Below are positions 27,504-43,511 of a stretch of 64,000 nt of DNA, in pieces. A program made the position numbers and the translations under genes. Position 1 is the stretch's first letter. Each line of letters begins with the position of its first letter. The notes beneath the pieces are model-generated. The model was not told the DNA's origin. It did no database searches and saw nothing but the letters and a program-made list of their open reading frames with translations. Source of the DNA: Oceanidesulfovibrio indonesiensis (GTDB lineage Bacteria > Desulfobacterota > Desulfovibrionia > Desulfovibrionales > Desulfovibrionaceae); NCBI RefSeq assembly GCF_007625075.1, contig NZ_QMIE01000016.1, positions 1 to 64,000 on the forward strand, in the 5' to 3' direction.

Positions 27504-27881
27504 ATGGTCTTCACCTGGCTCAACGTGGCAATTCTCATCTGCCTCATTACCGGCATCCTCTTTGCCGCTGGACCCCTCCTGGGGGCCTTGCTTCTGGCTC
27601 CCAAAACGAAAGGCGGCGACTACGGCATGCCGTATGAGTGCGGTGTGCCGCCACACGGTTCTTCCTGGGTCCGTTTCGGTATCAACTACTATTTCTACGC
27701 ACTGCTGTTCCTCGCTTTCGACGTGGATGTGCTCTACCTGTTTCCGGTTGCAGCGCACTATCCGGACAGCGAGGGGATCGTGCCGTTCATCAAGGTGCTG
27801 ATCTTCCTCGTCGCGTTAGGGCTCGGCTGCGTATACTTCTGGAGGAAAGGGGTCTTCGAATGGCCGAAGAAAGCGTTTTGA
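27504..27881 (+). CDS. nuoA: NADH-quinone oxidoreductase-like subunit A
   Basis: The 125-residue membrane subunit has three hydrophobic helices (about 6-28, 63-82, 95-115). The conserved subunit A motifs [11 protein letters not shown] (first matrix-side loop) and [15 protein letters not shown] are present. It packs next to the quinone channel with NuoH, J and K. AAGGAG lies about 8 bases upstream of the ATG. It is the first gene of the operon and overlaps nuoB by 22 bases. Confidence 0.95.
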
Positions 27882-28405
27882 GACCGGCGGTCACCGACCA
27901 GGACAAGGCGCTGATCTCCTGGTCGCTGCCGCAGAAGATCTTCGACGTCGCTCGCGCGATGTCCTTGTGGCCCATGACTTTCGGCCTTGCCTGCTGCGCC
28001 ATCGAGATGATGGCCGTGGGCATGGCGCGGTTCGACATTTCGAGGTTCGGCGCGGAAGTCTTCCGCCCCTCGCCGCGCCAGTCCGATCTGATGATCGTTG
28101 CCGGCACGGTGTCCAACAAGATGGCTCCGGCGCTGGTTCGCCTGTACGAGCAGATGCCTGCCCCCAAATATGTCATGGCTCTGGGCAACTGCGCCATCGC
28201 CGGCGGGCCTTTCGTGTTCAAAGATCAGTACGGCATCGTAGAGGGTGTGGACAAGCTGGTGCCCGTGGATGTCTATGTGCCGGGCTGTCCCCCGCGGCCG
28301 GAAGGTCTGCTCGAAGGACTGTTCCAGATCCAGGAAAAAATGACGGGTCGTCGCTGGTGGCCCGAAGCGCCCATAGAACCTGGCCCAGGCGAAGCGGGCA
28401 AATAA
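27860..28405 (+). CDS. nuoB: NADH-quinone oxidoreductase-like subunit B
   Basis: The 181-residue subunit carries the terminal [4Fe-4S] cluster N2. All four ligands are visible: the tandem C45-C46 of [10 protein letters not shown]111 in GNCAIAGG and C143 in [10 protein letters not shown]. The ATG at 27860 with GGAGGA about 12 bases upstream is preferred; the frame stays open further upstream, but that stretch overlaps nuoA and is not conserved in character. The C-terminal tail after WWPEAP is short. Confidence 0.95.
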
Positions 28406-28423
28406 GCAGACGAGGAGCATGAG

Positions 28424-29068
28424 GTGGCCGAGCGTAGTGATTTTTCATTTCTCGACGAGGCCGAAGCGACCTGCCGCCTGGCCATGGACCCGGCGGCGAC
28501 CGGTATCGACCTCTGCCTGATCCTCGAGCGCGACGCGCTCCTGCCGGCTGTGGAATCCATAGACGCGGCCGGGTTCTTTATCGAAGACGTCGCGGTCCTG
28601 GACGTGGCCGAAGGATACCAGGCGCGCTACCACTTCCGCCGTTTCGACACCAAGGGGCGTATCGAACTGCGCGTGACCGCGCCGCACGACGATCCGCATA
28701 TTCCTTCCATCGCCAACATCTTCCAGGGTGCCGAATGGCACGAACGGGAGTCCATGGACTTCTACGGCGTCACCTTCGACGGCAACCCCAACCCCGCACG
28801 GCTCCTGCTGCCCGAGGACGCCACGATCAAGCCCCTGGAAAAGGACGAGAAGTCCCGAAAATCGTATCTCGACCTCATGCCGGAATTCACTATCGTGGAA
28901 TGCGCCGAAGGCCATCCCATAGAGGAGCTCGCGGCCAAACGTCAGGCCGAGCGCGAAGAAGCCGAGCGCAAAGCCGCCGAAGAGGCGAAGAAGGCCGAGG
29001 AAGAGGCGAAAAAGGCGGCGGAGGAAGAAGCCGCGAAACAATCCGAGGAAGCCGGCGAAGCCGGTTAG
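28424..29068 (+). CDS. nuoC: NADH-quinone oxidoreductase-like subunit C
   Basis: The 214-residue protein starts at a GTG with GAGGAG upstream. The 30-kDa-subunit signature is clear in FQGAEWHERESMDFYGVTFDGNPNPARLLLPED. Residues about 167-214 form a Lys/Glu/Ala-rich low-complexity tail (KRQAEREEAERKAAEEAKKAEEEA) likely to be a single charged helix, an addition to the normal fold. It sits in the hydrophilic arm with NuoB, D and I. The gene is separate from nuoD, as in non-enterobacterial complexes. Confidence 0.93.
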   Translation: MAERSDFSFLDEAEATCRLAMDPAATGIDLCLILERDALLPAVESIDAAGFFIEDVAVLDVAEGYQARYHFRRFDTKGRIELRVTAPHDDPHIPSIANIFQGAEWHERESMDFYGVTFDGNPNPARLLLPEDATIKPLEKDEKSRKSYLDLMPEFTIVECAEGHPIEELAAKRQAEREEAERKAAEEAKKAEEEAKKAAEEEAAKQSEEAGEAG

Positions 29069-29077
29069 GGAATCACC

Positions 29078-30319
29078 ATGTCCGACGAGCAGAACGACAT
29101 GACCACGGAACAGATTCTGACGCCCGAGGATCCTTCGAAGATCAAGGCCAGCGGCTTCGACCCCGGCATCCTCGAAGTCGGCGACAGCTACACACGGCAC
29201 TTCCAGGAAGGACCCACCGAGGACACCCTGATCATCAATATGGGGCCGCAGCACCCGTCCACCCACGGCGTTCTGCGCATCGTCCTCGAGCTCGACGGCG
29301 AATACATCAAGAAGGCCGAGCCGGTGCTGGGCTACGTCCACCGGATGCACGAAAAAATGGGCGAAAACCGCTCCGCCGCACAGTTCTACCCGAACACCGG
29401 CCGGGCGGACTACCTGCACGCCATAGCCTGGAACTGGGTATGGTGCGGCGCCGTGGAGAAGCTGGGCGGCATCGAGGTGCCGGAACGCGCGGAGTACATC
29501 CGCGTGCTTACCAACGAGCTCAACCGCATCTCCTCGCACCTGTTGTGGTGGGGCGCGTACCTGCTGGACCTCGGCGCATTCACGCCCATCATGTACGCGT
29601 TCCAGGACCGCGAATACATCATGGACCTGTTGCAGCGCTGCACGGGATCGCGGCTGACCTACTGCTACTTCCGCTTCGGTGGCGTCTCCCACGACCTGGA
29701 CGACGTATTCATGGACGGCGTTCGCGAGTTCGTTCCTTACTTCCGCAATCGGCTGCCCATGTTCAAGGCGCTTGTCACCGATAATATCATTCTGCGCAAA
29801 CGCGTGGAGGACGTCGGCCATTTCGACCAGGACCTCTGCCGACGTTACGGCGCGACCGGCCCGGTCTGCCGCGGTTCGGCCATTCCATACGACGTCCGCC
29901 GGGCCGAGCCTTTCTCGGTGTACGACAAACTCGACTTCGAAATCCCCCACTACGAGGAAGGCGACGCCATGGCGCGCTACCTCGTTCGCATGGACGAGAT
30001 CGAAGAAAGCCTCAAGATCATCGAGCAATGCCTTGAGCGGCTGCCGTCGGCCAAGGGCAAGCACATCGTGGACAAGGCGCCCAAGCCCACCTACAAGGCG
30101 CCGGCCGGTGAAGTCTACTACGCCGTGGAAGCCGCACGCGGCGAGGTGAGCGTACTGCTCTCCTCGGACGGCGGCGCCAACCCCTACCGGGTCAAGCTGC
30201 GCGCGCCAAGCTACTGCAACCTGAGCCTCTTCGCCGAGGCCGCCCAGGGCGTACTGCTGGGAGACGCCGTCTCCATCCTGGGCAGCCTGGACCTCGTCAT
30301 CCCGGAGATTGACCGGTGA
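29078..30319 (+). CDS. nuoD: NADH-quinone oxidoreductase-like subunit D
   Basis: The 413-residue 49-kDa-type subunit lines the quinone pocket together with NuoB. Typical blocks are MGPQHPSTHGVLRIVLELDGE (quinone-site His), GYVHRMHEKMGENR, ELNRISSHLLWWG and the C-terminal GDAVSILGSLDLVIPEIDR, whose final Arg is conserved. It starts 9 bases after nuoC and overlaps nuoH by 4 (GTGA). The first 35 residues (DEQNDMTTEQILTPEDPSK) are an acidic extension. Confidence 0.96.
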   Translation: MSDEQNDMTTEQILTPEDPSKIKASGFDPGILEVGDSYTRHFQEGPTEDTLIINMGPQHPSTHGVLRIVLELDGEYIKKAEPVLGYVHRMHEKMGENRSAAQFYPNTGRADYLHAIAWNWVWCGAVEKLGGIEVPERAEYIRVLTNELNRISSHLLWWGAYLLDLGAFTPIMYAFQDREYIMDLLQRCTGSRLTYCYFRFGGVSHDLDDVFMDGVREFVPYFRNRLPMFKALVTDNIILRKRVEDVGHFDQDLCRRYGATGPVCRGSAIPYDVRRAEPFSVYDKLDFEIPHYEEGDAMARYLVRMDEIEESLKIIEQCLERLPSAKGKHIVDKAPKPTYKAPAGEVYYAVEAARGEVSVLLSSDGGANPYRVKLRAPSYCNLSLFAEAAQGVLLGDAVSILGSLDLVIPEIDR

Positions 30320-31299
30320 ACGAACTTATCAATAGCATCCCGCCGGAACTGGTGCGCCTCAGCCTCGCGCTCATGGCGCTTGCGGCCTTCGTGGGTCTCA
30401 ACGGTCTGGTACTCGTGTACCTGGAACGGAAAGTGGCCGGCCACGTGCAGCGGCGTCCCGGCCCGTTCGAGGTCGGCCCGCATGGCATCATCCAGCCGTT
30501 GGCCGATGCGCTCAAGCTCGTGGGCAAGCAGCTCTTCACCCCGCCCAGGGGCGACAAACTGCTGTTCTGGCTCGCGCCGATCCTCTCCTTCACACCCATT
30601 TTCGTGCTCTTCATCCCCATCGAGTTCGGGCCGGGTCTCTACGGCATCGACATGGACCTGGGCCTGCTGCTGATTCTGGCCTTTGCCGGGTTCAACGTGC
30701 TGGCCCTTTGTCTGGCCGGCTGGGGCTCCAACAACAAATGGGGTCTGCTCGGCGCAGCCCGCGCGGTGTCCCAGTCCGTTGCCTACGAAATTCCGCTGCT
30801 GCTCTCAGTGCTCGCCATCAGCTTCATGGCCGGCTCGCTCCACCTGGGCGAAATCACGGCGCAACAGGGTTCCTGGCCGTGGCAGTGGAACATCGTCACC
30901 CAGCCGGTGGCGTTCCTCATCTTCCTGATCTGCGGCGTGGCAGAGACCAACCGCGCGCCCTTCGACCTGCCCGAGGCGGAAAGCGAGCTCACAGCCGGCT
31001 TCCACACCGAATACTCGGGCATGGGCTTCGGCTTGTTCTTTCTTGCCGAGTACGCCGAGATGATCGTCATCAGCGCCGTGGCCGCCGTGCTTTTTCTGGG
31101 CGGCTGGAAAGGCCCGATCGTGGACGGCGTATGGTGGTTCCTCATCAAGATATACGCGCTATTGCTTCTCATGATGTGGTTCCGCTGGACGTACCCGCGC
31201 GTGCGGTTCGACCAGATCCTCAACATCTGCTGGAAGTGGCTCATCCCCCTGGCGCTTGTAAACCTGCTGGTCACGGCCCTGGTGATGAAACTCGTCTAG
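30316..31299 (+). CDS. nuoH: NADH-quinone oxidoreductase-like subunit H
   Basis: The 327-residue protein has eight hydrophobic helices. The conserved loop segments are VYLERKVAGHVQRRPGPFEVGPHGIIQPLADALKL (shown in parts: YLERKVAGHVQRR, GPFEVGPHGI) and TNRAPFDLPEAESELTAGF with its Glu/Asp quinone-channel residues. It links the hydrophilic arm to the antiporter-like subunits. It uses a GTG start overlapping the nuoD stop. Confidence 0.96.
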   Translation: MNELINSIPPELVRLSLALMALAAFVGLNGLVLVYLERKVAGHVQRRPGPFEVGPHGIIQPLADALKLVGKQLFTPPRGDKLLFWLAPILSFTPIFVLFIPIEFGPGLYGIDMDLGLLLILAFAGFNVLALCLAGWGSNNKWGLLGAARAVSQSVAYEIPLLLSVLAISFMAGSLHLGEITAQQGSWPWQWNIVTQPVAFLIFLICGVAETNRAPFDLPEAESELTAGFHTEYSGMGFGLFFLAEYAEMIVISAVAAVLFLGGWKGPIVDGVWWFLIKIYALLLLMMWFRWTYPRVRFDQILNICWKWLIPLALVNLLVTALVMKLV

Positions 31300-31320
31300 C
31301 TGGAGCATCGGAAAGGAATC

Positions 31321-31914
31321 ATGAAACGCACCTATCAAGTACGGCACTACAAGAAGCAGGGCCCCCAGAGTGTCGCGGCCGTGGTCGCCGATTTCTTCTC
31401 CGGACTGTGGAGCCTTGTGGTGGGCCTCCGCGTGACGGGGCGCAACTTCGCGTCCTCCCAGGTCACGGTCCACTATCCGCGCCAGGACGTGGGCGAAGAA
31501 CAGCTTGAGGGCTACCGCGGCCATATCGAGCTGGTTCCCAAGCCCAAGGATCCTTTCACGCCCAAGTGCATCCTGTGCATGATGTGCGCGCGCGTGTGCC
31601 CTTCCGGCTGCATCACCGTGAAGATGAAGAAGCAGCCCAAGGAGGAACCGGCGGAAGAGGGCGCCAAGCCGAAAAAGGCGCCAAAGGAAGTGGAGAAGTT
31701 CCACCTCAACTACAACCTCTGCAGCCTGTGCTCCCTGTGCGTGCAAAGCTGTCCGGTAAGCTCGCTGCGACACAGCAGGAACGTCTACATTTCAGGGTTC
31801 CGGAAGGAGGACTTCGAAATGGACCTTCTGGCGCGCCTCCACAGACAGGCCGAGGCTGCGCCGAAGAAACCCGCACCGGAAAAAGAGGCCGAGACGGCCG
31901 AGGCCGCCGGCTAA
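31321..31914 (+). CDS. nuoI: NADH-quinone oxidoreductase-like subunit I (two [4Fe-4S])
   Basis: The 197-residue ferredoxin-like subunit has two CxxCxxCxxxC groups: C83-C86-C89-C93 (CILCMMCARVCPSG) and C134-C137-C140-C144 (CSLCSLCVQSCPVS), which ligate clusters N6a and N6b. A basic/Glu-Pro-rich linker (about 103-125) separates them, and an Ala/Glu/Lys tail follows. With no nuoE/F/G in the operon, this is the most exposed electron entry point and could accept electrons directly from a soluble donor such as ferredoxin (inference). Confidence 0.95.
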   Translation: MKRTYQVRHYKKQGPQSVAAVVADFFSGLWSLVVGLRVTGRNFASSQVTVHYPRQDVGEEQLEGYRGHIELVPKPKDPFTPKCILCMMCARVCPSGCITVKMKKQPKEEPAEEGAKPKKAPKEVEKFHLNYNLCSLCSLCVQSCPVSSLRHSRNVYISGFRKEDFEMDLLARLHRQAEAAPKKPAPEKEAETAEAAG

Positions 31915-31932
31915 GCCCGGGTCGAGGATATC

Positions 31933-32454
31933 ATGGATACCCAGAGTGCAGCCCACTTGCTCTTCATCGTTTACGCCATCGTTGTTCTCGGCGGCGGCAT
32001 CATGGCGGTTGTCGCCAAGAGCCTGGTGCGCGCCCTCGTGGGCCTCGTGCTCACGCTCTTCGGCGTCGCCGGCATGTACCTGCTGATGGCCGCGCCATTC
32101 ATGGCTCTCATGCAGATCCTCATCTACGTGGGAGCCGTGGTCGTGCTCATCTTCTTCTCGATAATGCTGACCAATGCGACTTCCCGGGGCGACGAAGCCA
32201 AGCCGCGCTCGGGTTTGCGAATATTCCTGGCCCTGGTGGCCGCCGCCATCCCGGCTGGCCTGCTGGCCCTTGTTGCCTGGACGCAGTCCACGGCCACGGA
32301 TGCGGTGCAGACGCCGGTTGAAATCTCCATCGACCAGCTCGGCAAGGCATTGCTCAACGAATACGTGCTCGCATTCGAGCTCATCTCGGTGGTGCTGTTC
32401 GTGGCCATGGCCGGGGCCGTGTTGCTGGGATTCGAAAGGAGGAAGTCCAAGTGA
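31933..32454 (+). CDS. nuoJ: NADH-quinone oxidoreductase-like subunit J
   Basis: The 173-residue protein has five hydrophobic helices. The conserved third helix segment reads FMALMQILIYVGAVVVLIFFSIML, which in complex I contains the pi-bulge involved in coupling. It is preceded by GAGGA. Its stop overlaps the nuoK GTG start by four bases. Confidence 0.94.
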   Translation: MDTQSAAHLLFIVYAIVVLGGGIMAVVAKSLVRALVGLVLTLFGVAGMYLLMAAPFMALMQILIYVGAVVVLIFFSIMLTNATSRGDEAKPRSGLRIFLALVAAAIPAGLLALVAWTQSTATDAVQTPVEISIDQLGKALLNEYVLAFELISVVLFVAMAGAVLLGFERRKSK

Positions 32455-32762
32455 GCGAGCCGCTCTTTCTCTACCAAGCCGTCGCCCTGCTGCTCCTGTT
32501 CCTGGGCATATTCGGCATCATCACACGCAAGAGCCTGGTGGGCATGATCATCGCAGTGGAGCTGATGCTCAACGGCGCCGGCCTCGCCATAGTCGCCTCC
32601 GGGCAATTGACGGGCGCACCGGCAGACCTGGCCCAGCTTTCGTCGCTTCTCGTCATGGGGCTCGCCGCGGCCGAAGCGACCCTGGTGCTCGCCATAATCC
32701 TTGTGGTCGCCAAGCGGTTCGGCACCGTGGAAACAGATCGCGTTTCGGAGCTCGAGGGATAA
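32451..32762 (+). CDS. nuoK: NADH-quinone oxidoreductase-like subunit K
   Basis: The 103-residue protein has three membrane helices with the two conserved buried Glu residues (VGMIIAVELMLNGAGL and LAAAEATLVLAIILVV). It relates to MrpC and passes the proton path from NuoJ to the antiporter-like subunits. It uses a GTG start coupled to nuoJ. The next gene starts 4 bases downstream. Confidence 0.95.
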   Translation: MSEPLFLYQAVALLLLFLGIFGIITRKSLVGMIIAVELMLNGAGLAIVASGQLTGAPADLAQLSSLLVMGLAAAEATLVLAIILVVAKRFGTVETDRVSELEG

Positions 32763-32766
32763 ACCC

Positions 32767-34248
32767 ATGCCAGAGATAATCACAACGAGCCGCGTGCTCA
32801 TCCCCCTCGCCCTAACGTTCCTTGCACCGTTCTTCATCTGGTTGCTGCGGCGCAATATCAACACGCGCGAAGCCGTGAGCTTCACTGCCGCCATCCTCAC
32901 CACGGGCTCCATGCTCCAGTTCGTTCCCGGCGTGCTGGAGGGCAAGATCTACGTCATCACGGTATTCACCCTGCTGGACGGCATCACCGTGAAGTTCTGC
33001 GTGGACGGTCTGGCGCTCATCTTCGGGCTCATCGCGCCGTTTTTGTGGATCCTGGTCACGAGCTACAATATCGGCTACATGCGCGGGCTCTCGGAACACG
33101 CCCAGACGCGCTACTACTTCTGCTTCGCGGTGGCCATATTCGGCGCCGTGGGCGTGGCCACGGCCGCGAACATCTTCACCTTGTATCTTTTCTACGAGAT
33201 CATTTCGCTGTTCACGTACCCGCTCGTCGCACACCACGAGGACGACGAAGCCTTCATCGGCGCGCGCAAGTACTTCGTGTATCTCATGGGTACGTCCAAA
33301 CTGTTCTTCCTGCCGGCCATGGTGCTCACCTACGTGCTGGCCGGCACCCTGGACTTCAAACTGGGCGACTTCGTGCACGGCATCTTCCCGGCCGACGCGG
33401 ACCGCACCCTGGTGACGCTCACCTACGTGCTGTACATCGCTGGCCTGGCCAAGGCCGCGATCATGCCGTTCCATAACTGGCTGCCCTCAGCCATGGTCGC
33501 GCCCACGCCGGTCTCCGCGTTGCTGCACGCAGTGGCGGTGGTCAAAGCCGGCGTCTTCTCCGTGTGCCGGATGATACTTTCCGGTTTCGGCCTGGAGACC
33601 ATGGACCAGTACTTCCTGGGCATACCAACGGCTTACGTGGCGGCGTTCACCATCGTGGTGGCGTCGTTCATCGCGCTCACCAAGGACGACATCAAGGCGC
33701 GGCTCGCCTACTCCACGGTCAGCCAGCTCTCCTACGTGGTCATAGGCGTGGCCATGCTAACGCCGCTGGCGGTGCAGGGCGGGCTCATGCACATTGCCCA
33801 CCACGCCTTCAGCAAGATCACACTCTTTATGGGCGCCGGCGCCATCTACGTGGCCACGCACACCAAGAAGATAAGCATGATGCACGGCATGGGCCGGCGC
33901 ATGCCGTGGACTTTCGGCGCATTCTCCATAGCCGCCTTGTCCATGATCGGCGTGCCGCCGGTGTGCGGATTCGTCTCCAAGTGGTATATGGTTCGCGGTG
34001 CGGTGACCATTCACGAGAATATCTTGCTCATCGCACTTTTGGGCTCTACGCTGCTAAACGCCGGGTACTTCGGCCCCATCATCTACAAGGCATTCTTCCT
34101 GCCCGCCTCGCCCGGAGTGCGGCTGGAAGAGTACCGCGAGGCCTCGGCCGTGATGGTGGTGCCATTGGTTATCACTGCGACGATCAGCGTGATACTCGGC
34201 TTGTATCCGGAGATTTTCCTCAACTTTATCAAGACGTTTTCTTTCTGA
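32767..34248 (+). CDS. First antiporter-like subunit (NuoL/MrpD family, short form)
   Basis: The 493-residue protein has about 14 hydrophobic helices. It has the family Glu in FYEIISLFTYPLV, the broken-helix lysine in GLAKAAIMPFHNWLPSAM, HAVAVVKAGVFS and the later HHAFSKITLFMGAG. It lacks the long C-terminal lateral helix of true NuoL and resembles MrpD-type antiporter subunits. The ATG at 32767 has GAGGGA upstream, inside the end of nuoK; a frame upstream of it overlaps nuoK and is rejected. It is one of four antiporter-like subunits in this operon, each expected to translocate one proton or Na+. Confidence 0.92.
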   Translation: MPEIITTSRVLIPLALTFLAPFFIWLLRRNINTREAVSFTAAILTTGSMLQFVPGVLEGKIYVITVFTLLDGITVKFCVDGLALIFGLIAPFLWILVTSYNIGYMRGLSEHAQTRYYFCFAVAIFGAVGVATAANIFTLYLFYEIISLFTYPLVAHHEDDEAFIGARKYFVYLMGTSKLFFLPAMVLTYVLAGTLDFKLGDFVHGIFPADADRTLVTLTYVLYIAGLAKAAIMPFHNWLPSAMVAPTPVSALLHAVAVVKAGVFSVCRMILSGFGLETMDQYFLGIPTAYVAAFTIVVASFIALTKDDIKARLAYSTVSQLSYVVIGVAMLTPLAVQGGLMHIAHHAFSKITLFMGAGAIYVATHTKKISMMHGMGRRMPWTFGAFSIAALSMIGVPPVCGFVSKWYMVRGAVTIHENILLIALLGSTLLNAGYFGPIIYKAFFLPASPGVRLEEYREASAVMVVPLVITATISVILGLYPEIFLNFIKTFSF

Positions 34249-34259
34249 GGTAGTAACGC

Positions 34260-34697
34260 ATGTTCACAGACACGTTGGGTGATTGGCTAGAGTTGCAGCG
34301 GAGGCGCGCAGACTTCTGGAAGAAACTGTTCTTCCTCGCGCTCATCCTTTTGTTGTTGGGGAACGTCATCGTTAAGCCGAAGCCGTACGAACATGAGATT
34401 CACCCCGCAGGGCGCGTCGAAAACGGCGCATTGCTTGATGAGCATGGAGCGGCGGACACGCATGGAGAAGCCGTCACTCACGACGCCCATGGAGCAGCCG
34501 ATACGCACGGCGCGGCGGATGAACACGGCGGCAAAGCGAAAGGATTCTTCGACGTCGACGCTCCTCACTTCGTTCTCGACAAGTGGCCTGGTTTCTGGCC
34601 GGCCTTCAGTCTTCTCGCATCGGTCGGCATGATTCTGGTTCTCAAGAAAGTCGTCGCCAAAGTGCTCGGCAGAAAAGAGGACTTCTATGCTGAATAG
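34260..34697 (+). CDS. His-rich two-helix membrane protein of unknown function
   Basis: The 145-residue protein has two hydrophobic helices (about 20-38 and 111-129). The loop between them holds His 45, 48, 62, 68, 74, 77, 83 and 89. Near-identical units HGAADTHG (62-69, 77-84) and HGAADEHG (83-90) show it grew by tandem duplication. It is not a canonical complex I subunit. It lies between the two NuoL-like genes, 11 bases after the first and overlapping the second by 11, with GAGG before its ATG. It is therefore co-expressed and may be an accessory subunit; metal binding by the loop is a guess. Confidence 0.8.
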   Translation: MFTDTLGDWLELQRRRADFWKKLFFLALILLLLGNVIVKPKPYEHEIHPAGRVENGALLDEHGAADTHGEAVTHDAHGAADTHGAADEHGGKAKGFFDVDAPHFVLDKWPGFWPAFSLLASVGMILVLKKVVAKVLGRKEDFYAE

Positions 34698-36498
34698 CTT
34701 CTTCCATCCGGCAGCGTTGTTCATACCGGCGGCTTTGCTGGCGCCGTTCATTCCACGCAGCATCGTGCGCTGGATCACCCTTGTCGTGCCCGTGGCGGCG
34801 CTGGCGGCGGTGTACTCCATGGACAACGGCGCCCATTGGGAGGTCAGCTATCTTGGGCTGGATCTGACGTTCGGACGCGTGGACCAGCTTTCGATCATCT
34901 TCGCGCACGTGTTCGCTATCCAGTCCTTCCTCGGCTTTCTCTTCGCCTTCCACCTTAAGAGCAGGCTGCAGCATATAGCGGCTCTGCTCTATGTGGGCGG
35001 CGCATTCGGAGCCGTCTTCGCCGGGGATTATCTGACCCTGTTCATCTTCTGGGAACTCATGAGCGTGGCGTCCACGTTCCTGGTGCTCTTCAACCGCCAG
35101 AACAAGCTCGCTGCCGGGGCTGCGTTCCGCTACTTCCTGTTCCACACACTGGGCGGACTCTTCCTGCTGGGCGGCTTGCTGCTACGGTCCCAGGCGCTGG
35201 GCACCTTCGCCTTCCTGCCTACAGACCCAGCCGGCCTGCAGCTCTACGACTACCTCATCATGCTCGGCTTCTGCGTGAACGCCGCCGTGGTGCCGCTGCA
35301 CGCCTGGCTTCCGGACACCTACCCGGAAGCCACGGTGACGGGCGCGGTGTTCATGTCCGCGTTCACCACCAAGACCGCAGTCTACGTTCTGGCGCGGGGC
35401 TTCGCCGGCGCCGAGGTGCTGGCGGTGATGGGCACGGTGATGGCTGTCTACGGTGTTTTCTACGCGACCATCGAGAACAATGCGCGGCGCATCCTCTCCT
35501 ACCACATCGTTTCACAGGTGGGGTACATGGTTGCCGGCGTGGGCATAGGCACGGCCATGACGGTGAACGGCGCCTGCGCGCACGCTTACGCGCACATCCT
35601 GTACAAAGGCCTGCTCTTCATGGGCGCGGGCTGCCTGCTGTACGCTGCCGGCACGGCCAAGCTCACGGAGCTTGGCGGCCTGGTGCGGCGTCTGCCCCTG
35701 GTGTTCATCTTCTATATGGTCGCGGCTCTCTCCATCTCGGGCATGCCGTTCTTCAACGGATTCGTGTCCAAGACCATGACCATAGCCGGAGCGGCCAACG
35801 CGCACCATACGTGGCTCGCGCTCGGCCTGGAGCTCGCAGCGGTGGGTACGTTCCTTTCGGTTGGCCTGAAGCTCCCGTACTTCGCATTCTACGCCAAGCC
35901 GGAGAATAAGATGCCGCTCAAGAAGATCCCCGCCAACATGTACATCGCCATGGCGCTGGGCTCTTTCTTGTGCATTCTCACAGGCCTGTGGCCGAGCCTG
36001 CTGTATCAACTGCTGCCATTCCAGCATGGCCTGGAGTCGTACAGCCCTTATGTGCTGATGACATCCTTCGACTACACGCCCTACACGCTGTGGCACATCC
36101 TGCAAGCGTTCATGATTCTGGGCTTCACGGGTCTCGGCTTCTACCTGATGCGCAAAGTGGTGGTGCCGCACGCGCAACGCAACCTGGATTTCGAGTACCT
36201 GTACCGGATCGTGGGGCGCGCGTTCATGATGGTTGTCACCAGGCCGGCCGCGGCCATCGACGCGGTATGGGGCGAGGTCTACCGGACCATTGGCCTTGCC
36301 TTCCTCCTGATAACGGCCAAGCTGACGTCGATTTTCGACCGCAAAGGAATCGACGGCGTTCTAGACGGAAGTGTCTATGGCGTGGGACGCGGCGGACATG
36401 CCCTGGCCCGCACGCAAACCGGCAAACTCCAAGGCTACCTCGCAGCGGCGCTGATCATCGGCCTTCTCGTCTTCGCTGCAGCGTGGTTCACGGGCTAA
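34687..36498 (+). CDS. Second antiporter-like subunit with C-terminal extension (NuoL/MrpD-like)
   Basis: The 603-residue protein has about 14 core helices with FIFWELMSVASTFLVLF (Glu), VPLHAWLPDTYPEATVTGAVFMSAFTTK (Lys) and HAYAHILYKGLLFMGAG. After about residue 480 an extension of 120 residues (RNLDFEYLYRIVGRAFMM...) ends in a membrane segment following QTGKLQGYLAAAL. That pattern resembles the lateral helix and last helix of true NuoL, so this is the best candidate for the distal NuoL. Annotations in relatives often call it Na+/H+ antiporter subunit D. The start overlaps the His-rich gene. Confidence 0.9.
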   Translation: MLNSFFHPAALFIPAALLAPFIPRSIVRWITLVVPVAALAAVYSMDNGAHWEVSYLGLDLTFGRVDQLSIIFAHVFAIQSFLGFLFAFHLKSRLQHIAALLYVGGAFGAVFAGDYLTLFIFWELMSVASTFLVLFNRQNKLAAGAAFRYFLFHTLGGLFLLGGLLLRSQALGTFAFLPTDPAGLQLYDYLIMLGFCVNAAVVPLHAWLPDTYPEATVTGAVFMSAFTTKTAVYVLARGFAGAEVLAVMGTVMAVYGVFYATIENNARRILSYHIVSQVGYMVAGVGIGTAMTVNGACAHAYAHILYKGLLFMGAGCLLYAAGTAKLTELGGLVRRLPLVFIFYMVAALSISGMPFFNGFVSKTMTIAGAANAHHTWLALGLELAAVGTFLSVGLKLPYFAFYAKPENKMPLKKIPANMYIAMALGSFLCILTGLWPSLLYQLLPFQHGLESYSPYVLMTSFDYTPYTLWHILQAFMILGFTGLGFYLMRKVVVPHAQRNLDFEYLYRIVGRAFMMVVTRPAAAIDAVWGEVYRTIGLAFLLITAKLTSIFDRKGIDGVLDGSVYGVGRGGHALARTQTGKLQGYLAAALIIGLLVFAAAWFTG

Positions 36499-36513: not shown

Positions 36514-38118
36514 ATGCAGGAGACCGGATTTCCAGTTCTTTCCTTGCTCATCTTCTTCCCGCTCGCGGCGGCGGCTGTACTCATGCTGTCCAGAGCAGGC
36601 GGCTTTGCTGCGCGGATGTTCACCCTGTGCGCCGGATTCATCGAGATCGCCCTGGCGATTCCTCTGGTGACCAGGTTCGAGCTCGGCAATCCCGGCTGGC
36701 AGTTCGCGGAGCATGCTGAATGGGTGCCGCGTCTGGGGCTGTCGTACCACCTCGCGGTGGACGGCGTGAGCTACCTCATGGTCTTGCTTACGGTTCTCCT
36801 GCTCCCGCTGTGCGTGCTCTGCTCATGGACGTACATCACCAGGCGGATCAAAGAGTTCCATGTCAATCTCCTGTTCATGACGGCGGCGTGCGTGGGCGTG
36901 TTCACGGCGCTGGACTTCGTACTCTTCTACGTTTTCTGGGAAGCGATGCTGGTGCCCATGTACCTGCTCATCGCGATCTGGGGCGGCGACGAGAGGCGCT
37001 ACGCCTCGCTCAAGTTCTTCCTGTATACGCTGGCGGGCTCCACGCTCTTCCTCGCGGCCATCGTGGCATTCTATGCGCAGACCGGGACCTTCTCCATTCC
37101 CGAGTTGATGAACAGCGAGTTCTCCCGGACCTTCCAGTACTGGACCTTCGGCGCCATGGCCCTGGCATTCGCCATCAAGGTGCCCATGTTCCCATTCCAC
37201 ACCTGGCTTCCGGCGGCGCATGTGCAGGCGCCATCGGCAGGCTCTGTGGTGCTGGCGTCGGTGTTGCTGAAGATGGGAACCTACGGATTCCTGCGGTTCT
37301 GCCTGCCGATCACGCCGTTGGCGGCCGACTACTTCGCCCCGCTCATGATCGCCATCTCGATCGTCTCGATCATCTACGGTGGATTCGTGGCGCTCGGCCA
37401 GAAGGACATGAAGAAGCTGATCGCCTACAGTTCTGTTGCGCACATGGGCTTCGTCACTCTGGGTATTTTCATCTTCAACCAGCGGGGCCTCGAAGGCGCG
37501 CTGTTCGTGATGCTCAACCACGGCATCGTCACCGGCGCGCTCTTTATGATGGTCGGCGCTATCTACGAACGCAGTCACAGCCGCGAGATTTCCGAGAACC
37601 TGGGTCTGGGCAAGTATCTGCCGGCGTTCATGGGGTTCTTCGGACTGTTCGCCGTGGCCTCGTTCGGCTTCCCGGGACTGAACAGCTTCGTGGGTGAGGC
37701 GCTGGTGCTCATCGGCGCGTTCCAGGACAACCTGCTTATCGGGTTGCTCGCCATACCAGGCGCCATGCTCGCCGCCGCTTACATGCTGCGGCTGGGGCTC
37801 AAGATGGCCTGGGGCCAGCCTGCATCGCCCAAGAACAGGGGCTGGGCCGACCTCAACCTGCGCGAGTGGGTGTACCTTGCGCCGCTGGCCATCCTCACCG
37901 TGTACCTTGGACTTGCTCCGGGCATCGTCATGAAGGTCGTGAGCCCGTCGGTAGGCAAGGTTCTGGCGGACTACAACGCCAAGCTCGAACGCGCGGGAGT
38001 GCTGGCAGAGGACGAGGCGACGCCCCGGGATATGGCAGCGACGCAGTTGAGCGCGGCCGGTCTCTCGCTCGAAGAAACATCCAACGACCTGGACGCCGCC
38101 CTCGCGGCGCACAGGTAG
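36514..38118 (+). CDS. nuoM: NADH-quinone oxidoreductase-like subunit M
   Basis: The 534-residue antiporter-like subunit has diagnostic NuoM segments YHLAVDGVSYLMVLLT, FWEAMLVPMYLLIAIWG, MFPFHTWLPAAHVQAPSAGSVVLA and KKLIAYSSVAHMGFV. The catalytic Glu and Lys are in place. The C-terminal 50 residues are an unusual hydrophilic Ala/Glu-rich tail (EDEATPRDMAATQLSAAGLS). AAGGA precedes the ATG. It is followed 19 bases later by nuoN. Confidence 0.96.
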   Translation: MQETGFPVLSLLIFFPLAAAAVLMLSRAGGFAARMFTLCAGFIEIALAIPLVTRFELGNPGWQFAEHAEWVPRLGLSYHLAVDGVSYLMVLLTVLLLPLCVLCSWTYITRRIKEFHVNLLFMTAACVGVFTALDFVLFYVFWEAMLVPMYLLIAIWGGDERRYASLKFFLYTLAGSTLFLAAIVAFYAQTGTFSIPELMNSEFSRTFQYWTFGAMALAFAIKVPMFPFHTWLPAAHVQAPSAGSVVLASVLLKMGTYGFLRFCLPITPLAADYFAPLMIAISIVSIIYGGFVALGQKDMKKLIAYSSVAHMGFVTLGIFIFNQRGLEGALFVMLNHGIVTGALFMMVGAIYERSHSREISENLGLGKYLPAFMGFFGLFAVASFGFPGLNSFVGEALVLIGAFQDNLLIGLLAIPGAMLAAAYMLRLGLKMAWGQPASPKNRGWADLNLREWVYLAPLAILTVYLGLAPGIVMKVVSPSVGKVLADYNAKLERAGVLAEDEATPRDMAATQLSAAGLSLEETSNDLDAALAAHR

Positions 38119-38137: not shown

Positions 38138-39568
38138 GTGAATCCCGAATATCGGTTCGATCTCTGTTGGCCGGAGCTGTATCAGCTCGCCATCATCGCG
38201 TTGCTCTTCATACAGACTTTGGCCAAAGGGGAGCGCCCCAGGAACGTTGACTGGGTGCCTTATGCAGCGGCCGGCGGCATCTTCATCGCCGTGGTTTCGC
38301 TGGGCTTCTCAGGTACTTTCTTCTACGGCGCCTACGCTGTCGACAAACTCTCGCAGTTCTTTAAGCTCGCCGTGGCCGTAGGTTTCGCCATCGCGAGCCT
38401 CAACGCCGCCAAGCCGCCGGATATCGAAGGCAGCAAGCGTTCGGACTACATGCTCTTCCTCGCCTTCTCGGCGTGGGGGCTCATGCTGCTTTCCTCGGCC
38501 GTGGAACTCATCACCATCTACGTGGCGCTCGAAGTAGCGTCCTACAGCCTCTATGCGCTGATTCCCCTGCGCGCGCAGGACCGACGCGCGGCGGAAGGCG
38601 GCATCAAGTACATCATGTTCGGCGCTGTGGCCACGGCCGTGGCGCTGTTCGGCTACGCGTACGTCCTGGCAGGGGCGAACACCAGCTACATTGTCGATCT
38701 CCAGGGCCTCGAGCTGACCTACCAGGCCCAGCCCTGGGTCGTTGTCGGTCTTTCTCTCTTCCTGGTCGGCTTTCTGTTCAAGCTCGCTCTCTTCCCGTTC
38801 CACTTCTGGTGTCCGGATGTGTACGAAGGCACGGCCAACGAGACGGCCGCCTTTGTGGCCACACTGCCCAAGCTCGGCGCCGCTGTGGTGCTGGTGCGCT
38901 TTGCTGCGCTGCTGACTCCGGGTTGGCCTATTACCACGGTTCTGGCCGTGTTCGGCGCGATCTCCATGACCTTCGGCAACCTCGCCGCCCTGGCGCAACG
39001 GGACCTGAAACGACTGCTCGGATACTCGTCAATCGCGCACGCCGGGTACATCATGATGGGGCTGGTCTCGGGCACGGCGGAAGGCCTGGCCGCTGCGAGT
39101 TTCTATGCTCTGGTCTACGTGCTTATGAACCTCACCTGCTTCTGGGTGATCTGCCGCATTTCGCACACAGGCAAGAACATCACCCTGGACGACCTGGACG
39201 GCCTCGCGCAACGAGAGCCGGCGCTTGCCGTGGTGCTTGCCGTGGCCGCCTTCGCCCTGGTTGGCCTGCCGCCTACAGCGGGTTTCATGGGCAAGCTGTT
39301 CCTGCTTCAATCCCTGTGGGACAACGGCTACAACTGGCTGGTCATCGTGGCGGTGCTCAATACCGCCATTGCGATCTACTACTACCTGAGTATGGTTCGT
39401 CACGCCTACACGCACGAAAAGGAAGTGCATCCAAGCACCCGCAGCGCCACATCCGTTTCGGCGCAGGTCTGGGGCACGGTGTTCGCCATCGTGCTGCTCG
39501 TGCTCGGCGCCATGCCGGCTCCGGTGTTCGACCTTGCCATGGCCGCCGGGGTCGCGCTCATTCCGTAG
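38138..39568 (+). CDS. nuoN: NADH-quinone oxidoreductase-like subunit N
   Basis: The 476-residue antiporter-like subunit starts at GTG with GGAG upstream. Motifs are TIYVALEVASYSLYALIPL, FLFKLALFPFHFWCPDVYEG and KRLLGYSSIAHAGYIMMGL. It is the proximal antiporter-like unit in complex I, next to NuoK. It is the last gene of the operon; a strong terminator lies 27 bases after its stop. Confidence 0.96.
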   Translation: MNPEYRFDLCWPELYQLAIIALLFIQTLAKGERPRNVDWVPYAAAGGIFIAVVSLGFSGTFFYGAYAVDKLSQFFKLAVAVGFAIASLNAAKPPDIEGSKRSDYMLFLAFSAWGLMLLSSAVELITIYVALEVASYSLYALIPLRAQDRRAAEGGIKYIMFGAVATAVALFGYAYVLAGANTSYIVDLQGLELTYQAQPWVVVGLSLFLVGFLFKLALFPFHFWCPDVYEGTANETAAFVATLPKLGAAVVLVRFAALLTPGWPITTVLAVFGAISMTFGNLAALAQRDLKRLLGYSSIAHAGYIMMGLVSGTAEGLAAASFYALVYVLMNLTCFWVICRISHTGKNITLDDLDGLAQREPALAVVLAVAAFALVGLPPTAGFMGKLFLLQSLWDNGYNWLVIVAVLNTAIAIYYYLSMVRHAYTHEKEVHPSTRSATSVSAQVWGTVFAIVLLVLGAMPAPVFDLAMAAGVALIP

Positions 39569-41018: not shown

Positions 41019-42332
41019 ATGGCGAAACATCCAACTCCAATGTTGGACCAGCTCGAAAGTGGGCCCTGGCCCAGCTTCGTGTCCGACATCAAACAGGAGG
41101 CTGAAGCCCGCGCCAAGAATGAGAAGGGCCTGGACTACCAGATTCCTGTGGATTGTCCTGAGGACCTGCTCGGCGTTCTGGAGCTCACCTATCACGACCA
41201 GGAAACCCACTGGAAGCACGGCGGCATCGTCGGCGTGTTCGGTTACGGCGGCGGCGTTATCGGCCGTTACTGCGACCAGCCCGAGCAGTTCCCCGGCGTG
41301 GCGCACTTCCACACCGTGCGCGTCAACCAGCCCTCGGGCAAGTACTACACCAGCGAATACCTCCGCCAGATCTGCGATCTGTGGGACCTTCGCGGCTCCG
41401 GTCTGACCAACATGCACGGCTCCACCGGTGACATCGTGCTGCTCGGTACGACCACCCCGCAGCTCGAAGAAATCTTCTATGAGCTGACCCACAAGCTGAA
41501 CACCGACCTCGGTGGCTCCGGCTCCAACCTGCGTACCCCGGCCGCGTGCCTCGGCAAGTCCCGCTGCGAGTATGCCTGCTACGACTCCCAGCTGCTCTGC
41601 CACACGATGACCAACGAGTATCAGGACGAGTTGCACCGTCCGGCATTCCCCTACAAGTTCAAATTCAAGTTCGACGCCTGCCCGAACGGCTGCGTTGCCT
41701 CCATCGCCCGCTCCGACTTCTCGGTCATCGGCATGTGGAAGGACGACATCAAGATCGACCAGGAAAAGGTCAAGGCGTACGTGGGCGGCGAGTTCGCTCC
41801 CAACGCCGGCGCCCATGCCGGTCGCGACTGGGGCAAGTTCGACATTGAGGCCGAGGTCGTTGCGCTCTGCCCGACCAAGTGCATGACCTGGGACGGCCAG
41901 ACCCTGAAGATCGACAACGCCGAGTGCGTTCGCTGCATGCACTGCATCAACGTCATGCCTCGCGCCCTCAAGATCGGTGACGAGACCGGCGCCTCCATCT
42001 GCTGCGGCGCCAAAGCTCCGATCCTCGATGGCGCTCAGATGGGCTCGCTGCTCGTGCCCTTCATCCCGGCCGAAGAACCCTTCGACGAGATCAAGGAAGT
42101 GGTCGAGAACATCTGGGATTGGTGGATGGAAGAGGGCAAGAACCGCGAGCGTCTCGGCGAGACCATGAAGCGCATGGGCTTCCAGAAACTGCTCGAGGTT
42201 ACCGGCATTGAGGCTATGCCGCAGCACGTGTCCGAACCGCGGAACAACCCCTACATCTTCTTCAAGGAAGAAGAGGTTCCCGGCGGCTGGACTCGCGACA
42301 TCGCAGATTACCGCTCTCGTCACCAGAGATAA
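41019..42332 (+). CDS. dsrA: Dissimilatory sulfite reductase alpha subunit
   Basis: The 437-residue subunit reduces sulfite in the last steps of sulfate respiration, as part of a DsrA2B2 complex bound to siroheme and [4Fe-4S] clusters. Siroheme-cluster cysteine motifs are CLGKSRCEYAC and later CPNGC; an inserted ferredoxin domain has CPTKC and CVRCMHCINVMP. The YTSEYLRQICDLWDLRGSGLTNMHGSTGD stretch is typical DsrA. Codon use is strongly biased to C-ending codons, as expected for a very highly expressed gene. GGAGG precedes the ATG. Confidence 0.98.
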   Translation: MAKHPTPMLDQLESGPWPSFVSDIKQEAEARAKNEKGLDYQIPVDCPEDLLGVLELTYHDQETHWKHGGIVGVFGYGGGVIGRYCDQPEQFPGVAHFHTVRVNQPSGKYYTSEYLRQICDLWDLRGSGLTNMHGSTGDIVLLGTTTPQLEEIFYELTHKLNTDLGGSGSNLRTPAACLGKSRCEYACYDSQLLCHTMTNEYQDELHRPAFPYKFKFKFDACPNGCVASIARSDFSVIGMWKDDIKIDQEKVKAYVGGEFAPNAGAHAGRDWGKFDIEAEVVALCPTKCMTWDGQTLKIDNAECVRCMHCINVMPRALKIGDETGASICCGAKAPILDGAQMGSLLVPFIPAEEPFDEIKEVVENIWDWWMEEGKNRERLGETMKRMGFQKLLEVTGIEAMPQHVSEPRNNPYIFFKEEEVPGGWTRDIADYRSRHQR

Positions 42333-42350
42333 CCCTAGGAGGAACGAGAA

Positions 42351-43511
42351 ATGGCTTTCATTTCTTCCGGATACAATCCGGACAAGCCGATGGAAGATCG
42401 GATTACCGACATCGGCCCCCGGAAATACGACGAATTCCTGCCCCCCGTCATCAAGAAGAACTTTGGCGAGTGGGACTACCATGAGATTCTCGAGCCCGGC
42501 GTGCTGGTCCACGTGGCCAAGAGCGGCGACAAGGTCTTCACCGTCCGTGTTGGCGCCGCCCGCCTGATGTCCACCACCATGATCCGTGAAATGCTCGAGA
42601 TCGCCGACAAGCATTGCGACGGTCACCTGCGCTTCACCACGCGTAACAACGTGGAATTCATGGTGGACGACGAGTCCAAACTCGCGGGCCTCAAGGAAGA
42701 CCTCCTGTCCCGCAAGTTCGCCGGCGGTTCCTACAAGTTCCCCATCGGCGGCACCGGCGCCAGCATCACCAACATCGTGCACACCCAGGGCTGGGTCCAT
42801 TGCCACACCCCGGCTACCGATGCCTCCGGTCCGGTCAAAGCTATCATGGACGAGTGCTTCGAGCATTTCTCCAAGATGGATCTGCCGGCTCCGCTGCGCA
42901 TCTCCCTGGCCTGCTGCCTGAACATGTGCGGCGCCGTGCATGCTTCCGACATCGGCTTGGTGGGCATCCACCGCAAGCCGCCCATCATCGACCACGCGGT
43001 CCTGGACAACGTCTGCGAGATTCCGCTCGCCGTCGCGTCCTGCCCCCTGGGCGCCATCAAGCCCACCAAGACCGAGGTCAAGGGCGAGAAGGTCAACACC
43101 GTGGCCGTCAACGAAGATCGCTGCATGTACTGCGGCAACTGCTACACCATGTGTCCTGCGCTTCCGCTCGCCGACAAGGAAGGCGACGGCATCGCGATCA
43201 TGGTGGGTGGCAAGATCTCCAACCGCATCTCCGAACCGAAGTTCTCGAAGGTTGTGGTTGCGTACGTGCCCAACGAGACCCCCCGTTGGCCCACCCTCAC
43301 CAAGATGGTGAAGAACATCGTCGAAGTGTACTCCAAGAACGCCCGCAAGTACGAGCGCCTGGGCGACTGGGCCGAGCGTATCGGCTGGGAGAAGTTCTTC
43401 GAAGTCACCGGCATTCCCTTCACCCAGCACTGCATCGACGACTTCCGCGATCCGGCGTACTACACCTGGAGGCAGTCCACGCAGTTCAAGTTCACCAGCC
43501 ACGTCAAGTAG
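42351..43511 (+). CDS. dsrB: Dissimilatory sulfite reductase beta subunit
   Basis: The 386-residue partner of DsrA has siroheme/[4Fe-4S] motifs in [15 protein letters not shown] and a ferredoxin-type group [30 protein letters not shown] and [21 protein letters not shown] are typical DsrB sequences. AGGAGG lies about 8 bases upstream of the ATG. It starts 18 bases after dsrA. DsrB carries the functional siroheme, and a channel to the surface lets DsrC receive the sulfur (family knowledge). dsrC is not in this window. Confidence 0.98.

Follow-up and report, generated by a model that had tools for sequence, protein, structure and literature searches.

A small membrane protein encoded between two antiporter-like genes of a nuo operon in Oceanidesulfovibrio indonesiensis is probably an accessory subunit of an alternative complex I, in which it would belong with the extra antiporter. 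The window analysed here is the whole stretch of 64,000 nucleotides (contig NZ_QMIE01000016.1, positions 1 to 64,000). The small protein, S, lies between A and B, two antiporter-like proteins that would together replace NuoL, and we put the probability of the subunit reading at roughly two in three. S would form a hairpin of two membrane helices with cytoplasmic ends and a short, His-containing periplasmic turn, and would accompany A, most likely in contact with A and/or B within the distal membrane arm. The reading draws on the constant neighbourhood of S with A and B, the occurrence of S in rhizobia, selection on the S core, a conserved Lys129, the long lateral helix of B and the His of the turn.

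The gene for S (34260-34697, plus strand; open reading frame, family alignments and structure model) starts with ATG, encodes 145 amino acids and overlaps at its 3' end the start of B (34687) by 11 bases. In the predicted structure (mean pLDDT, 68; pTM, 0.36; modest confidence), a helix at residues 2-15 is followed by TM1 (residues 17-37; 34308-34370, plus strand) and by TM2 (residues 112-136, containing Lys129; 34593-34667, plus strand; placed with the model and an alignment of 110 S proteins), with residues 38-104 lacking regular structure. Each end carries five Lys/Arg, and residues 39-106 hold 13 Asp/Glu against 5 Lys/Arg and 9 His; by the positive-inside rule for membrane protein topology, both termini would be cytoplasmic and the loop or turn periplasmic. 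The nine His are residues 45, 48, 62, 68, 74, 77, 83, 89 and 103, eight of them within an inserted stretch and one in a conserved PHF motif. The window protein shows the family features of a two-helix core, a P-H-F turn end, F112, Lys129 and a C-terminal E-D-x-Y. Conserved residues in the 110-protein alignment lie in both helices and the C-terminus, and Lys129 (K in 108 of 110) was the most conserved of those counted.

S is unlike known complex I subunits, as a preliminary description of this DNA had stated: no Pfam or NCBIfam model passed its cut-off against it, and the same held for two further S proteins against Pfam. The search of solved structures by sequence gave no S relative (best match, a lysophosphatidic acid receptor at the chance-level E value of 0.065). 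Kinship with the His-Xaa-Ser repeat protein HxsA4 (13.7 bits against a cut-off of 55; E, 0.089) or with the Plasmodium HRP model (13.4 bits against 45.8; E, 0.069) was rejected, as both scores fall far under the cut-offs and the matches look compositional.

Upstream in the same operon lie nuoA, B, C, D, H, I, J and K (27504-32762, plus strand), of which nuoD, I, J and K were named by comparison with family models (I under the cut-offs) and nuoA, B, C and H from reading of the open reading frames. These are followed on the same strand by the MrpD-like antiporter subunit A (32770-34248; NCBIfam PRK08375.1-1, 772 bits against a cut-off of 663), S, the NuoL-like/MrpD-like subunit B (34687-36498; PRK12668.1, 705 bits against 564), nuoM (36514-38118) and nuoN (38138-39568), the last two named with family models. 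Among the matches listed, none of the operon's four antiporter-like proteins reached the NuoL cut-off; one passed that for NuoM (TIGR01972). The open reading frames adjoining the operon include no nuoE, nuoF or nuoG. About 1.5 kb 3' of nuoN are genes read from their open reading frames as dsrA/dsrB-like (41019-43511), in the same order in a congener (genome G001).

Judged by its alignments, S is a conserved two-helix family of sulfate reducers and rhizobia. When the window protein was searched against 99 relatives (its own genome included), 47 matched, nearly all over one or both helices. A profile built from 21 aligned S proteins gave matches in 63 of the 99 relatives and, among 395 genomes sampled from the phylum, in 166, counts that include weak matches taken without individual checking. 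At least one of the 47 protein matches was false: that in genome G014 (L028:1408-2223) is the His-rich N-terminal part of an ATP synthase subunit b, in which HGDA-type repeats precede the membrane helix. A search of genome contigs with the window protein confirmed nothing. The S protein of one other genome found no match in plasmids by tblastn, though the profile matches the rhizobial S proteins; pairwise search is therefore too weak for this family.

S keeps its place between A and B. In the first 20 loci fetched (19 nuo loci from 19 genomes and one Mrp-type locus) it lay between them in all 20, and 18 of the 19 nuo loci had the order A-D, H-K, A-S-B-M-N, one of these (L033) without a nuoC match. 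The nuo operon of genome G025 (L037) reads J-K-A-S-B-M-N and then A-B-C-D-H-I, which resembles the rhizobial order. A further 20 loci (19 nuo-type, 1 Mrp-type) had A-S-B throughout, with the first genes reordered in two (L125 and L126). For 103 distinct S segments (window excluded), neighbours were scored against seven antiporter/NuoK gene classes: the nearest class upstream was A or its Mrp-type counterpart in all 103, and the nearest downstream was B or its counterpart in 97. B was seen in five of the remaining six, and the contig of the sixth ends 143 bp after S. Conversely, 34 loci were fetched from named records by A alone, and S followed within about 250 bases in 32, the other two being cut by contig ends. 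A scored above the family cut-off in 57 of 99 relatives. The genomes of 55 of these also gave an S match, and in the other two (G084 and G063) a divergent S lies between A and B. Five relatives (G072, G088, G091, G095 and G098) encode A-like proteins of about 400 bits, under the cut-off, and gave no S match. The 110 S proteins aligned comprise the window protein, the 103 segments, three rhizobial proteins and three divergent ones, these last picked by hand; before alignment, the S of G063 was trimmed to its first 75 residues and the first 58 were removed from the Mrp-type S of the window's genome. A natural fusion of A and S, suggested by S matches in open reading frames of about 580 amino acids, was rejected as a matter of shadow frames, S and A being in different frames; a second hint of fusion, the greater length of NCBIfam PRK07234.1-1 (569 positions), was likewise rejected, the three haloarchaeal members inspected having a long acidic/His-rich insertion towards the C-terminus and no S match.

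These results bear out much of the preliminary description. It had described a His-rich protein with two membrane helices, encoded inside the nuo operon, whose gene overlaps the antiporter-like gene that follows and is too integrated to be incidental; the gene is there, with its overlap, and its kept position across relatives makes it integral to the operon. In the loci read, neither absence of the gene nor a broken frame was found at this position. Nor is the gene restricted to this operon: homologues also occur between the corresponding genes of Mrp-type operons (of the window's genome and a congener) and with rhizobial green complex I. The kept gene order is also compatible with S being a factor that helps to assemble the A-B end of the membrane arm and is missing from the mature complex. 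S is small, strictly co-located with A and B, and overlaps the B start in the window. Set against such a role are the conserved residues in both helices and the C-terminus, as in a packed subunit, and the lateral helix of B, whose extra length of about one antiporter unit would provide a structural context for an additional small subunit. Neither point is decisive; an assembly factor seems an unlikely alternative.

In the structure predicted for B, TM15 occupies residues 468-490 and is followed by a long helix at 503-574 (low pLDDT, block means 45-71) and a last helix at 581-602, an arrangement resembling the lateral helix and TM16 of NuoL; searching structures with this model gave the expected Mrp and complex I antiporter subunits. 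From a (F/V)DxxY anchor to a QTG anchor, the lateral helix spans 75 amino acids in all 22 measurable B proteins (of 31), and also in S. meliloti B (counted by eye from the sequence). In canonical NuoL of the same phylum the span is 50 in 10 of 16 measured (of 20) and 50 or 51 in the other six, whose raw values of 55-59 came from an upstream pattern match and whose anchors were corrected by eye. The same span is 46 in E. coli NuoL.

B also lacks a Lys in TM7. All 34 B and all 6 mB proteins compared have Asn at this position (mA and mB being the counterparts in Mrp-type operons; Asn198 in window B), whereas the Lys is kept in A (37/37), mA (6/6), M (28/28), N (21/21), MrpD (6/6) and canonical NuoL (21/21). 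B retains the TM5 Glu, TM8 Lys and TM12 Lys, which, with the TM7 Lys, we take from the complex I literature to serve the proton path. The second MrpD-like subunit, B, may thus not be a full pump: with its long lateral helix and without the TM7 Lys it would act more as cap and clamp, and an A-S-B complex I would then have no more complete antiporter channels than ordinary complex I, at odds with the pumping numbers proposed in PMC9040806. The TM7 Lys loss and the lateral helix are, like the S family, its constant neighbours and its two-helix core, read directly from sequence; we infer the physical membership of S in the complex, its place at the A/B contact and its topology.

Might Lys129 of S stand in for the lost Lys, so that B and S together make a working proton channel? 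K in 108 of 110 S proteins, together with Asn at TM7 in 34/34 B and 6/6 mB, would favour such a substitution. Haloarchaeal B, however, has Asn at TM7 in three of three cases without an encoded S, so that TM7 Lys loss does not need S, and we regard the substitution as very improbable. In the three haloarchaeal Mrp operons examined, A and B are adjacent with no S between them, and S is therefore not obligatory for the A-B pair. Together with the five relatives that have an A-like protein of about 400 bits and no S, this counts against the subunit reading, as do the modest model of S and the lack of a solved relative. Two haloarchaeal Mrp A proteins (L224:3983-5854 and L226:3893-5851) carry a long acidic, His-containing insertion near the C-terminus.

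The preliminary description had called the protein built from tandem HGAAD units. Its count is accurate: eight His lie in the loop (the ninth is that of the PHF motif), five of them (62, 68, 77, 83 and 89) in two HGAADTHG and one HGAADEHG, with exact HGAAD units at residues 62, 77 and 83. In 200,000 composition-preserving shuffles of the loop, at least one HGAAD arose in 774 and two in none; with unselected motifs (20,000 shuffles), a 5-mer occurred three times in 0 and a 4-mer three times in 19. The three units differ pairwise at 10 nucleotides, all in third codon positions and synonymous. The window's genome contains 18 copies of a degenerate 15-mer coding for HGAAD, against 2 of the reversed control pattern, and only the three copies in S cluster; congener G001 has 30 such 15-mers and none in its S gene. 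The repeats are thus beyond chance, and a genome-wide repeat element was rejected as their source, there being no clustering outside S.

The stretch between the helices, however, measures 66 amino acids in the window S, 78 in that of G001 and at most 9 (median, 7) in the other 108 of 110. The His-rich loop (residues 39-94; 34374-34541, plus strand; alignment and structure model) is therefore an insertion, seen only in the two genomes that represent this genus in the relatives set, and the function of the gene cannot rest on it or on its repeats. The short turns are themselves rich in His (fraction 0.336, against 0.011 elsewhere in S; at least one His in 106 of 108). The long loop thus appears to be a disordered periplasmic expansion, confined to this lineage, of a turn that is rich in His family-wide. 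Between the window protein and that of G001, the S core is under purifying selection (65/89 identical; dN/dS, 0.23). The loop is identical at 21/54 positions, with A at 461/492, B at 532/603, and A, B and M at about 88-94%. Loop composition is alike in the two congeners (His, 8/56 residues in the window and 9/68 in G001; His+Asp+Glu fraction, 0.34 and 0.35), made up of His, Asp/Glu, Ala and Gly, and the sequence is unlike, as would suit a solvent-exposed, low-complexity segment under weak constraint.

A parallel was found in Mrp-type operons, which in the relatives read end in mA-S-mB. Those of Desulfovibrionales Na+/H+ antiporters (L032, L114 and L197) have mA-S-mB after E-F-G-DUF4040-B-C-D, as the nuo operon has A-S-B, but differ from it in having no redox module among the genes read, and their S is divergent (80 amino acids in G001; E, 6e-4 in the window's own genome). 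In a Mrp-type operon of G063 (L199:6933-7424), the S homologue and a Biotin_lipoyl domain (Pfam E, 6e-8) are joined in one protein. MrpC has His-rich insertions in what we take to be its helix 2-3 loop, of 95 amino acids with 13 His in the window's genome, 66 with 9 in G001 and 72 with 10 in G014 (His/Ala-rich insertions at L197:7342-8214, L032:12694-13254 and L200:11248-11877). The other seven distinct MrpC loops found by pattern have 14-22 amino acids and 1-5 His; MrpC was matched in 19 of 59 relatives, and the pattern located the loop in some but not all of them. NuoK/MrpC (PF00420) resembles S as a small membrane subunit of the same complexes, here also with a His-rich loop, but is recognised by Pfam and has three helices against the two predicted in S.

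Three explanations of the loop were scored against each other and concern the loop alone. A neutral, low-complexity expansion, functionless by itself, comes closest to an even chance while staying below it: the loop is confined to one genus, predicted as disordered, and far less conserved (21/54) than A, B and M. The similar His content and charge in both congeners, the restriction of HGAAD differences to third codon positions and the presence of a His-rich expansion in MrpC of the same two genomes speak the other way. An alternative role as an antenna that collects protons or buffers pH at the periplasmic face of the antiporter-like subunits is unlikely. It accords with the 13 Asp/Glu, 9 His and 5 Lys/Arg of residues 39-106, with the turn His seen family-wide (106 of 108 short turns) and the same trend in MrpC loops, and with the argument, in the excerpts of a Mrp structure paper, that negative periplasmic charge helps to gather protons (PMC7419157); the long loop is, however, missing from 108 of 110 S proteins. 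Slightly less probable still is periplasmic binding or buffering of metal (Zn, Ni, Cu or Fe), a role that S would have gained in this genus. The loops with 8 His in 56 and 9 in 68 residues, the separate His-rich MrpC expansions in three genomes and the purely synonymous differences among HGAAD units would favour it; the expansion is nevertheless seen in one genus, its sequence is poorly conserved, no metal gene is among the operon genes named, and the HxsA4 and HRP matches look compositional. The loop is possibly neutral, or may have a weak buffering or metal-holding effect. Of the three roles floated in the preliminary description (an assembly factor, a metal or proton buffer, or a spacer between antiporter modules), the spacer would come closest to what we propose.

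A bolder version of the subunit reading is doubtful as a whole. In it, S would be a stoichiometric, unnamed subunit of a widespread four-antiporter complex I; S and A would be an insertable unit common to Mrp antiporters and complex I; Lys129 and the His turn would help to move protons at the A/B end; B would be a lysine-less cap; and the loop of this genus would serve as a proton or metal antenna. Excerpts of PMC9040806 discuss alternative complex I with extra antiporter-like subunits as pumping more protons per electron pair and suggest 5 to 6 pumped protons for such complexes. If S did move protons and B were a cap, an extra antiporter would not simply add one pumped proton, contrary to that 5 to 6 (PMC9040806). 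Should a conserved small subunit accompany A, with B uniformly lacking its TM7 Lys, both the number of pumping sites and the arrangement of the distal arm would have to be revised. Sinorhizobium meliloti 1021, in which B and S are present, and culturable sulfate reducers would allow a test of both. For annotation, S offers a definable family for a gene called 'hypothetical protein' in the three rhizobial records read. No description of S was recognised in the literature searched, a scope outside which Degli Esposti and Martinez Romero 2016 and Chadwick et al. 2018 fall, and we make no claim of its absence from print.

The nearest known system is the rhizobial 'green complex I', reportedly treated by Degli Esposti and Martinez Romero in 2016. 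Between the two MrpD-like genes, the plasmid regions read from S. meliloti (pSymA), Rhizobium lentis and Phyllobacterium zundukense (3/3) each encode an 84-amino-acid 'hypothetical protein'. All three proteins match the S profile, with E values from 2e-13 to 2e-12 at Z=1000 and better ones with a wider profile. Window A is 53% identical to its S. meliloti counterpart over 460 amino acids, and B 48% over 601. According to excerpts of two papers, green complex I has NuoL replaced by two MrpD-like subunits (PMC9040806, PMC7415380), and excerpts of one of them report symbiosis-linked expression (PMC7415380). The window operon shares with it the two MrpD-like subunits after nuoK and before nuoM-nuoN, with S between them. 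Rhizobial S has a short turn and 84 amino acids in total, as against the long loop of window S. The three rhizobial operons read have the order J-K-A-S-B-M-N-A-(B)-C-D-E-F (nuoB absent from the pSymA table; regions read ending in nuoF), unlike the A-B-C-D-H-I-J-K-A-S-B-M-N of the window, which has no adjoining nuoE/F/G. Since the order differs and these genes do not adjoin, the window operon has the subunit layout of green complex I and is not of the rhizobial operon type.

The 2M complex I of Nitrospira and Complex_I_3 of Ca. Manganitrophaceae, as presented in excerpts of PMC9040806, likewise exceed three antiporter-like subunits and, compared with canonical NuoL, have a lengthened lateral helix. 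Those excerpts link a 26-amino-acid insertion in the lateral helix to accommodating an extra ion-pumping subunit, and the surplus in B (75 against 50 amino acids) is similar. They also report that the insertion is absent from rhizobial green complex I, although the rhizobial B measured here has the 75 amino acids (PMC9040806). By the features of 2M complex I, the window operon has no second NuoM but does have a lateral helix longer by about 26 amino acids, on B; where 2M complex I has its second NuoM as the extra subunit, the window operon has the MrpD-like A, plus S.
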